DNA of 64,000 bases from Salinisphaera sp. (GTDB lineage Bacteria > Pseudomonadota > Gammaproteobacteria > Nevskiales > Salinisphaeraceae): the NCBI RefSeq assembly GCF_002729955.1, contig NZ_PBYA01000003.1:1-64000 (forward strand), in the 5' to 3' direction. Shown piece after piece: positions 49,478 to 55,429 of the stretch. A program made the translations under genes and the position numbers. Every line of letters starts with the position of its first letter. The stretch's first letter is position 1. Below the pieces are notes generated by a model that did not search any database, was not told where the DNA came from, and saw only the letters and a list, made by a program, of their open reading frames with translations.

Positions 49478-49758
49478 TGAATCTCCTGCCCGACGTCTCG
49501 GCCGCACCGCCTCGACACCGTCGCCCTGGGTCGGCTCTTTGGCCGACCGCGTTATTCGTCATCCCGCCGCGTTCGAGCACGGACGTGGATATATCGTTGT
49601 TTGAAATTCTAAATTGCCCGCTAACGGCGGCTGCGCGCAAGCCCGCGAATAGTCGCAGACCGCCCGGCTCGATCGATGCCCTGGAACGACCCCGCGCCGG
49701 TCACCGCGCCCCCATCTCGCGCTTGCCGCCCGCCCGCGGCGGGCGTAGTTTCGAATGG

Positions 49759-50076
49759 ATGAGATACCGGGCATGGACCATGGCGGCGCTGCTGAGTGTG
49801 TTCGCAAGCGCTGTGCTGGCTGCGGGCGAAGGCGAGGCTTTGGCCGGCGCCTGCACTGCCTGTCACGGCCCCGAGGGGCGCTCCGTGTCCGGCCTGCCGA
49901 CCCTGGCCGGCATGGATCGACGCCGGTTCATGGATCGCATGCAGGCATTTCGCAACGGCGAAGGCACGATCATGAATCGTATCGCCCCCGCCTACGACGA
50001 GGCCCAGACCGCGGCCCTGGCCGACCATTTCGCCGCGCTCGACCGCGTCGACGACGACCGGCGCCATGCCCCCTAA
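49759..50076 (+). CDS. Small periplasmic c-type cytochrome (FccA-like)
   Basis: Signal peptide; CTACH haem motif; distal Met region GTIMNRIAPAY. Confidence 0.8.
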   Translation: MRYRAWTMAALLSVFASAVLAAGEGEALAGACTACHGPEGRSVSGLPTLAGMDRRRFMDRMQAFRNGEGTIMNRIAPAYDEAQTAALADHFAALDRVDDDRRHAP

Positions 50077-50362
50077 GGAAGCTCTGCATAACCTCTCGCG
50101 GTTCGCGTTCGAGTCCTCACAGACGGTGCGGCAAGGCGTCGGAGCGCAGCGCCTGCCTTATTGGCAGGTCAAGCCTGGCAACGCAGCCGCGGCGTCTGTG
50201 AGGCCGAACCGCTTGCGGCCGCCGGCTTTGCGCGCGCTTGAGCGGCGTCAGTGTTCGCTACCGTGCCACGTGTTATTGGCTTGGGCACGCTACGCTCTCA
50301 CTTGCTGGTCATCGCGCGCAAAGCACGCCGGCGCGACCGTGACAGGTTATGCAGAGCTTTCC
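50077..50362. mobile_element. 286-bp MITE-like element with near-perfect terminal inverted repeats and TAA target-site duplication
   Basis: GGAAGCTCTGCATAACCT... / ...AGGTTATGCAGAGCTTTCC; TAA at 50074-50076 and 50363-50365; no internal transposase. Confidence 0.85.
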
Positions 50363-51641
50363 TAACGATCGGCGAACCCTGCTGCGTGGGCTGGCCGGCG
50401 CGGCCGCGCTCGGCGCGCTTGGCCTGCCCCTTGGCCGCGGCCGGGCCGCGCCCCCTTCGGTGGTCATCGCGGGCGGCGGTTTCGCGGGCGCCAGCTGTGC
50501 GCTCGCCCTGCGCCAGTTCGCCCCCGAGGTTCGCGTAACGCTCGTGGATCGACAGCCCCGTTTCGTCACCGGCCCATTTTGTAATGCGGTGATCGCCGGC
50601 CTGCGCCCGATTTCTTCCATCACCCAAAGCCACGCCGGCCTGAGCGCGGCGGGCGTTCGCGTGCTGCATGCCGATATCGACGGGGTCGAGCCCGCCGCCC
50701 GGCGCATCCGCCTGGCCGATGGCCGCAGCATCGGCGGCGACCGGCTGGTGATCGCACCCGGCATCGATTTTGACTGGGCCGCGATCGACGGTTATGGCCC
50801 CGGCCATGTCGCGCGTATTCCCCATGCCTGGCCCGGCAGCGCCGACCAGCTGCGCAATCTGCGCCAGCAGCTGCGAACCATGCCCGACAACGGGCGCGTG
50901 GTGATCAGCGTGCCGGACAACCCCTATCGCTGCCCGCCCGGCCCCTACGAGCGCGCCAGCCTGATCGCGCACTTTCTCAAGCAGCACAAGCCGCAGGCCG
51001 AAGTGCTGATCCTCGACGCCAAGGATCATTTTTCCAAGGAGCCGCTGTTTCGGACCGGCTGGGGTGCACGCTACGGCGAACGCCTGCAGTGGCGTGGCGG
51101 GCGCCGCGACGGCGCGCGCGTGGTGGCGGTGGATACGCAAAGCCGGCGTGTGCGTACGGTCGGCGGCGACGAATACGCAGCCGACGTGCTCAATATCATC
51201 CCGCCGCAGCGGGCCGGCCGACTCGCCCACGACGCCGGGCTGACCGATGCCGCCGGCTGGGTGCCGGTCGCCGCCCACGATTTCTCGGTGCCCGGCCACG
51301 CCGGCGTGCACGTGATCGGCGATGCTGCACGCGCCGAGCCCATGCCCAAATCCGCCTATGCCGCCAATATGCAGGCCAAGCTCTGTGCCCATGCCATCGC
51401 CCGCGAGCTGGCCGGCGAGCCGGTGGCCGAAACACGGCTGATCAACGCCTGCTACAGCCTGGTCGCCCCGGACTACGGCATCAGCATCACCGAGGTATAC
51501 CGGCTCGATGGCGATACGCTCGCCGCCCTCGCCAACGCAGGCGGCATATCCGCGCTGGCGGCCGATCGCCAGACCCGTGCGGCCGAAGCCGACTATGCCC
51601 GGGCCTGGTACGAGAACATCGTGCGCGACAGCTTCGGCTAA
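50349..51641 (+). CDS. FccB/SoxF-like FAD-dependent sulfide dehydrogenase-family flavoprotein (probable Tat signal)
   Basis: DRRTLLRGLAGAAALGAL leader; VVIAGGGFAGASCALAL; GDAARAEPMPKSAYAANMQAK. Confidence 0.8.
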   Translation: MQSFPNDRRTLLRGLAGAAALGALGLPLGRGRAAPPSVVIAGGGFAGASCALALRQFAPEVRVTLVDRQPRFVTGPFCNAVIAGLRPISSITQSHAGLSAAGVRVLHADIDGVEPAARRIRLADGRSIGGDRLVIAPGIDFDWAAIDGYGPGHVARIPHAWPGSADQLRNLRQQLRTMPDNGRVVISVPDNPYRCPPGPYERASLIAHFLKQHKPQAEVLILDAKDHFSKEPLFRTGWGARYGERLQWRGGRRDGARVVAVDTQSRRVRTVGGDEYAADVLNIIPPQRAGRLAHDAGLTDAAGWVPVAAHDFSVPGHAGVHVIGDAARAEPMPKSAYAANMQAKLCAHAIARELAGEPVAETRLINACYSLVAPDYGISITEVYRLDGDTLAALANAGGISALAADRQTRAAEADYARAWYENIVRDSFG

Positions 51642-54763: not shown

Positions 54764-55330
54764 ATGACGATCACGATACATCCCAGCGTCGATAAAGGCA
54801 TGACGCCGGCCGCGGAGAATTTCTCCGGCGGTACGCTGAAATGCCGCTGCAGCAGCGACCCTGTCCAGGTCGAGGTTTCTTCCCAGTGCGCCCACAACCA
54901 TGTCTGCGGCTGCACGATGTGCTGGAAACCCGAAGGCGCGACCTTCGCCCAGATCGCAGTGGTGCCCAGCGACAGCGTCAAGATCCGCGAAAACGAAAAG
55001 AAACTGAAGGTCGTCAACGAGAACGCGGCGATCAAGCGCCATGCCTGTACCGACTGCGGCACCCACATGGTCGGGCATATCGAAGACAGCAAGCATCCGT
55101 TCTACGGCCTCGACTTCATTCATACCGAGCTCTCCGACGAGCAGGGCTGGGAACCGCCCCAGTTCGCGGCCTTCGTGTCGTCGATTATCGAAGCCGGCAC
55201 CGATCCGAACCGTATGGGCGAGATCCGCCGTCACCTGCACGATGCCGGCCTGGAACCCTACGACTGCCTGTCGCCCACACTCATGGACGTGATCGCGACC
55301 CATACCGCCAAGCAAAAAGGCGTGCTCTAG
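54764..55330 (+). CDS. gfa: S-(hydroxymethyl)glutathione synthase (glutathione-dependent formaldehyde-activating enzyme)
   Basis: [45 protein letters not shown]. Confidence 0.92.
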
Positions 55331-55429
55331 GAGAGCTCTGTATAACCTGCCGCCGGCTGGGGCCGAGCCGGCGGCTTTCTCGAGCGCTTTGCTGCGGCCA
55401 GGGCAAAAGTCTTTTCCCGGCGGCAGGTT
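55330..55429. repeat. Relict element/hairpin related to the MITE end
   Basis: GGAGAGCTCTGTATAACCTGCCGCCGG left end; CCGGCGGCAGGTT inverted copy at 55417-55429. Confidence 0.45.

Follow-up and report, generated by a model that had tools for sequence, protein, structure and literature searches.

Promoters, terminators and peptides inserted in frame are among the contributions known from mobile elements. For MITEs of bacteria in particular, the literature describes the provision of promoters, stop codons, C-terminal residues and in-frame fusions. QMITE1 and QMITE2 of Coxiella burnetii give host genes stop codons or C-terminal residues; their insertions into functional genes are reported at 3' ends only, with no 5' end of a gene of known function being affected (PMC5896051). 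Rickettsia palindromic elements, ERIC and the Yersinia RU-2 are small repeats lying in frame with host genes, and one Yersinia MITE makes up part of a signal peptide (PMC10969869, PMC2229807). The Salinisphaera MITE described here differs from both groups. Whereas the QMITEs act on the 3' end of the host gene, it would supply a 5' end; and unlike the in-frame fusions of element ORFs seen with the Rickettsia elements, ERIC and RU-2, 13 nt of its repeat together with the duplicated target appear to replace a start codon lost at an overlapping junction. No description of a MITE terminal repeat replacing the start of an overlapping gene was found in the open-access literature.

In the window, i.e. 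the whole stretch of 64,000 nucleotides of DNA analysed from the salt-loving bacterium Salinisphaera sp., the element lies between a cytochrome c gene and fccB, with the following features.

49759-50076, + strand: monohaem cytochrome c gene, fccA-like, with its stop codon TAA at 50074-50076 (Pfam Cytochrom_C, CxxCH, ORF)
50066-50068, + strand: original fccB start ATG, overlapping the cytochrome gene by 11 bp and now separated from fccB (register of G007, G011 and G005)
50066-50365, + strand: 'relay' frame of 99 codons that opens at the old ATG, crosses the MITE and terminates over the new ATG (ORF list)
50073-50076, no strand: target-site duplication CTAA, left copy (copy comparison)
50077-50361, + strand: MITE, 65% GC, no transposase (copies in its own genome, G006 and G007)
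50077-50102, + strand: left terminal inverted repeat (sequence, copy comparison)
50336-50361, + strand: right terminal inverted repeat, bearing the new start codon (sequence, copy comparison)
50340-50342, + strand: in-frame TGA just upstream of the new start (sequence)
50349-50351, + strand: predicted new fccB start ATG, M-Q-S-F-P-N-D-R-R-T (sole in-frame start before the RR motif)
50349-51641, + strand: fccB, flavoprotein subunit of flavocytochrome c sulfide dehydrogenase (Pfam, PDB matches)
50362-50365, no strand: target-site duplication CTAA, right copy (copy comparison)

The best explanation of this arrangement as a whole, with a probability of about 0.7, is insertion of the MITE and replacement of the fccB start by its repeat, with relayed coupling of the two genes likely. 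A non-autonomous element with an IS5-like target entered the CTAA of the cytochrome stop codon and duplicated it. The cytochrome gene is unharmed, because its stop codon was copied by the insertion, and the overlapping start of fccB was left 289 bases off. As the frame ATG-CAG-AGC-TTY-CCT-ARN set by the repeat is that of fccB, this gene regains in its sequence a start, which it is predicted to use, and a leader longer by two residues.

The element, a MITE of 285 bp, is repeated dozens of times in its own Salinisphaera genome, where 59 matching pieces were found, including 18 complete or almost complete copies (best match outside the site 4.5e-118). The family is also present in G006, G007, G005 and other genomes of the genus. 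So many copies in one genome, some whole and others partial, indicate a mobile family, not a chance hairpin. The element is short, has inverted arms of 29 nt (50074-50102 and 50336-50364, 86% complementary), is flanked by a target duplication and is matched by an empty site in relatives; it is multicopy and without a transposase of its own, the ORFs inside it being chance frames only. No copy was found on plasmids, and a match of the MITE end sequence to a viral contig was discarded as a chance coding match. In G010, at least 20 stretches some 80 bp long match positions 93-172 of the MITE only, and represent a different, shorter repeat family with a common core.

Alignment of the full copies gives a target duplication of 4 bp, CTAA. 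The preliminary description had taken the TAA of the stop codon as the duplicated target; the TAA part of this stands but the length does not, the copies showing 4-bp CTAA around an element of 285 bp. The joined empty-site sequence given there, ATGCCCCCTAACGATCGG, is correct, as removing 286 bp plus TAA takes out the same 289 bases. The best-kept copies are flanked on both sides by CTAA (L001, L006) or by CTAG (L005, L013, L020), corresponding to a YTAR target, and exact YTAR flanks are found at 94 of 140 distinct ends gathered from G000, G006, G007, G005 and G010. Several copies (L002, L004, L009, L011 and others) often keep CTAG at one edge only, the opposite flank being CCAG or CTGG, a pattern that resembles erosion of CTAG by a biased process.

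According to a 2023 study, YTAR is the highly conserved target duplication motif of IS5 (PMC10359306). This 4-bp duplication is common to the Salinisphaera MITE, IS5 of Escherichia coli and IS5-type MITEs. The terminal repeats of the MITE are short and start with GGAAG, as, presumably, do the ends of IS5. Unlike IS5, the MITE is without a matching-end transposase among the loci examined, which were drawn from the matches to DDE_Tnp_1, DDE_5 and DDE_Tnp_1_2 in 14 Salinisphaera genomes. A DUF772 search of the own genome and the genus found no transposase bearing the MITE ends either; PF13546 was absent, and the PF13586 loci mostly coincide with transposase loci already examined. As no autonomous partner combining matching ends with an IS5-type transposase was found among these loci, the element is called a MITE with IS5-like target choice, not a member of IS5.

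The cytochrome gene is recognised by Pfam Cytochrom_C (E = 2.3e-5) and, by reading, by one CxxCH motif (CTACH); its 3' end reads ..CGC-CAT-GCC-CCC-TAA, after which the MITE begins. The empty site that had been predicted in relatives, and proposed as a test of the insertion, is found: six congeners (G007, G011, G005, G013, G003 and G004) are without the MITE at this position. In G007, G011 and G005 the cytochrome gene and fccB have the predicted 11-bp overlap in identical register (ATGCCCCGTAG, ATGCACCGTAG and GTGCCCCGTAA; empty-site sequences ATGCCCCGTAGCGATCGC, ATGCACCGTAGCGATCGG and GTGCCCCGTAACAACCGG, respectively), and the reconstructed N-terminus M-P-P-N-D-R-R-T corresponds to M-P-R-S-D-R-R-T in G007. 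The overlap in G013, G003 and G004 differs from the 11-bp form. Together with the comparison of copies, these empty sites bear out the insertion of a MITE at the cytochrome stop codon, and the proposed loss of the native overlapping start is supported as well. It is hardly conceivable that the MITE was ancestral at this site and was lost precisely from the relatives: no points favouring this were found, all six congeners have overlapping genes without the MITE, and the focal copy is young, with identical duplications.

A record titled 'Endozoicomonas sp. G2_2' gives the same match as G011, of the genus Salinisphaera, and is probably mislabelled (L131). In S. shabanensis, G005 (L027/L132), fccB is found in two frames, with a break at about query residues 242-249 that represents a frameshift or a sequencing error.

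After the MITE, fccB continues ..CCT-AAC-GAT-CGG-CGA. The protein carries the FCSD_central (6.7e-43) and FCSD-flav_bind (1.5e-23) domains of its family in Pfam, and matches PDB entries 5n1t (3.4e-110) and 1fcd (3.1e-103); an RR motif and a hydrophobic stretch, recognised by reading alone, form a putative Tat leader at its N-terminus. The in-frame ATG that had been proposed to lie in the right terminal repeat is confirmed at 50349, and, as was also proposed, the leader with its RR motif is kept after the insertion. This is the only in-frame ATG, GTG or TTG upstream of the twin-arginine motif. The fccB-frame codons preceding it are TGA-CAG-GTT, so a start farther upstream in this frame is impossible, and no other in-frame ATG, GTG or TTG follows until 32 codons after the insertion site, where both RR motif and leader have been passed. 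ATG 50349 is therefore the sole canonical start that keeps the leader, and appears to be the only usable start of fccB. Translation from the next canonical in-frame start, a GTG some 32 codons downstream of the insertion, would give a leaderless cytoplasmic FccB; this is very improbable, as it would drop the twin-arginine leader kept by all relatives.

Comparison of fccB with its counterpart in G007 gives a synonymous divergence of 0.37 and a dN/dS of about 0.12, and 43 silent and 10 replacement changes are assigned to its own branch. These values point to strong purifying selection on fccB, mostly predating the insertion. The focal copy has one private base, absent from all other copies, and on this basis the insertion is young. 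Selection was consequently rejected as proof of current fccB function, since after so recent an insertion it cannot yet show that the protein is still made.

The way in which the reading frame is restored can be traced to the structure of the repeat, which at the right-hand side ends ..GGTTATGCAGAGCTTYC. Intact MITE ends have an outward ATG or GTG 13 nt from the edge, and insertion is at YTAR. Read outward, the repeat is ..GGTT-ATG-CAG-AGC-TTY-C followed by YTAR, giving ATG-CAG-AGC-TTY-CCT-ARN (or -CTT-ARN). Where TAR is the stop codon of the upstream gene, the codons of the supplied frame break after its T, as those of fccB do. Both intact ends bear a start, which is GTG in the GCACAA variant and otherwise ATG, so that an overlapping gene in the supplied frame would be restored in either orientation of the MITE. 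As read from the copies, frame restoration is a fixed, built-in property of the family, missed by the preliminary description and recurring in G006. An extra-T frame-repair mutation in the repeat, prompted by the 3-bp reading of the duplication, was dropped given the 4-bp duplication; the T in question is a substitution (GCTTTC for GCTTCC), also present in L005, that leaves frame and Phe unaltered.

About one random overlapping pair in three would match the supplied frame, and the focal case, taken singly, may be no more than luck. Among the 140 ends, only two apparent displaced downstream genes were identified, fccB and a gene in G006, both in the supplied frame; no displaced gene in a wrong frame was seen among these ends, although such insertions may simply be lost. 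The G006 gene, B, belongs to another species and encodes a 382-aa secreted protein without a Pfam family; its neighbour is gene A. B would now begin at the GTG of the repeat, GTG-CAG-AGC-TTC-CCT-AAG-CGC-TGG = VQSFPKRWALRATACFLVAG, VQSFPKRWALRATACFLVAGLTLAGAALADEG (contig C12, L217). Gene A lies on contig C142, which stops 23 bp into the MITE, directly after the stop codon of A; the gene ends ..ATGATGCGCGCTAG at the other MITE half, with the junction ..GATCGCGATGATGCGCGCTAG GGA GGAAGCTC. Orthologous A-B pairs are adjacent and overlapping in G002 (4 bp), G008 (8 bp), G010 and G001, A being 71% identical between G006 and its G002 partner, and joining the two G006 genes gives ATG-ATG-CGC-GCT-ARG-CGC-TGG, in frame with B. 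With C142 and C12 joined by synteny in a genome that is incomplete (87%), the built-in phase thus appears to have restored a second overlapping gene. In the G006 case 3 extra bases are present at the left edge and the two flanks differ, one being CTAG and the other CTAA; B may instead use upstream in-frame starts inside the MITE.

Genes for DUF4186, glyoxalase-like, TrpF-like, QueF-like and thioesterase-like proteins, all in frame with the ATG or GTG of other ends, were rejected as start replacements, each keeping its own start downstream. At L003 (1776-2144) the repeat ATG is in frame with the DUF4186 protein (Pfam E = 2e-50). The ATG of the gene itself follows 7 codons later, and the alternative start may add MQSFPKD. 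The glyoxalase-like gene has a MITE copy just upstream, with its ATG in frame, in both G000 and G007 (L009, L146). This could be one older insertion common to the two genomes, and it may lengthen the N-terminus.

Ends of the MITE are frequently found at stop codons. At least 100 open codons ending at TAR are present at 22 of the 38 own-genome YTAR ends, against 36 of 212 YTAR sites in the window, and at 40 of 94 YTAR ends in the larger set. This excess can reflect tolerance as well as preference, because the duplicated stop keeps the upstream gene intact. Another relic of a stop-codon insertion is found in the window at 55327-55350, where a decayed solo end of the family (CTAG GAGAGCTCTGTATAACCT) coincides precisely with the stop of an ORF ending at 55330.

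The frames at the junction leave room for an alternative to the suggestion that the MITE probably uncouples translation of the two genes. The ancestral 11-bp overlap of the cytochrome gene and fccB is like that of genes coupled by termination-reinitiation (PMC6728339); the proposed relay would reuse this coupling, differing from it in that the MITE and the duplicated stop would form a second step. The 99-codon frame stops at the duplicated TAA (50363-50365) and overlaps the new ATG by 17 bp. Ribosomes would re-initiate at the old ATG 50066 and translate this frame through the MITE, melting its hairpin; after halting at the duplicated TAA they would begin again at ATG 50349, with coupling kept. 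Special openness of this frame was rejected as a feature of the focal copy: 6 of the 18 full copies have it open, by chance, and so it needs no special origin.

The folding of the RNA bears on how this start could be reached. The MITE RNA folds at -180.6 kcal/mol (z = -8.9), and the new ATG of a read-through transcript falls inside the terminal stem, with P(unpaired) of 0.08; the value is 0.49 once the upstream part is melted, and 0.52 for the native start in the joined flanks. A search for a ribosome-binding site or promoter in the element, which had been suggested as a check, yielded only a weak, badly spaced SD-like AGG, 2 bases from the new ATG (-3.7 kcal/mol vs a random-position median of -2.8). 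An SD is likewise missing at the native fccB start (-1.7), which is what coupling would lead one to expect. A consensus scan of 49500-50500, insensitive in a GC-rich gammaproteobacterium, found no site resembling a sigma-70 promoter.

These results have to be set against two other accounts of fccB expression. As the preliminary description held, fccB could be independent of the cytochrome gene, transcribed from a promoter inside the MITE and started at ATG 50349 without coupling. Promoter-carrying MITEs are known (PMC5896051), and transcripts begun in the right half of the MITE expose the ATG better (P(unpaired) 0.26-0.44); with neither a good SD nor, within the reach of the scan, a sigma-70-like site, such a promoter is possible but doubtful. 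Between the relay and an independent start the odds are about even, the relay being somewhat more likely. Alternatively, fccB may in effect be silenced, the repeat ATG being coincidental, the start locked in the hairpin, the coupling broken and the gene a recent, undecayed pseudogene-to-be. The hairpin, the weak SD, the failure to detect a promoter, the youth of the insertion and the one-in-three chance of a frame match all fit this account, but it is rather unlikely, as the open frame of fccB is complete with its leader intact, both displaced starts among the 140 ends are in the supplied frame, and the relay frame offers a route to the start. Start replacement by the repeat, with likely relayed coupling, is hence retained; the anatomy of the preliminary description is confirmed and extended, and the use of the start and the mechanism of coupling are proposed on its basis.

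A tentative extension, itself less probable than not, is that the family is pre-adapted to overlapping genes, through targeting of YTAR stops, duplication of the stop, a phased start and, if the length is divisible by 3, a relay. If this is true, insertion at polycistronic junctions would do next to no harm, and the property would be met with again in other genomes. For annotation, there is the warning that the first residues of a gene may be transposon. For the family itself, a start codon phased to a stop-codon target would explain how insertion into packed overlapping genes can occur without the death of the downstream gene.
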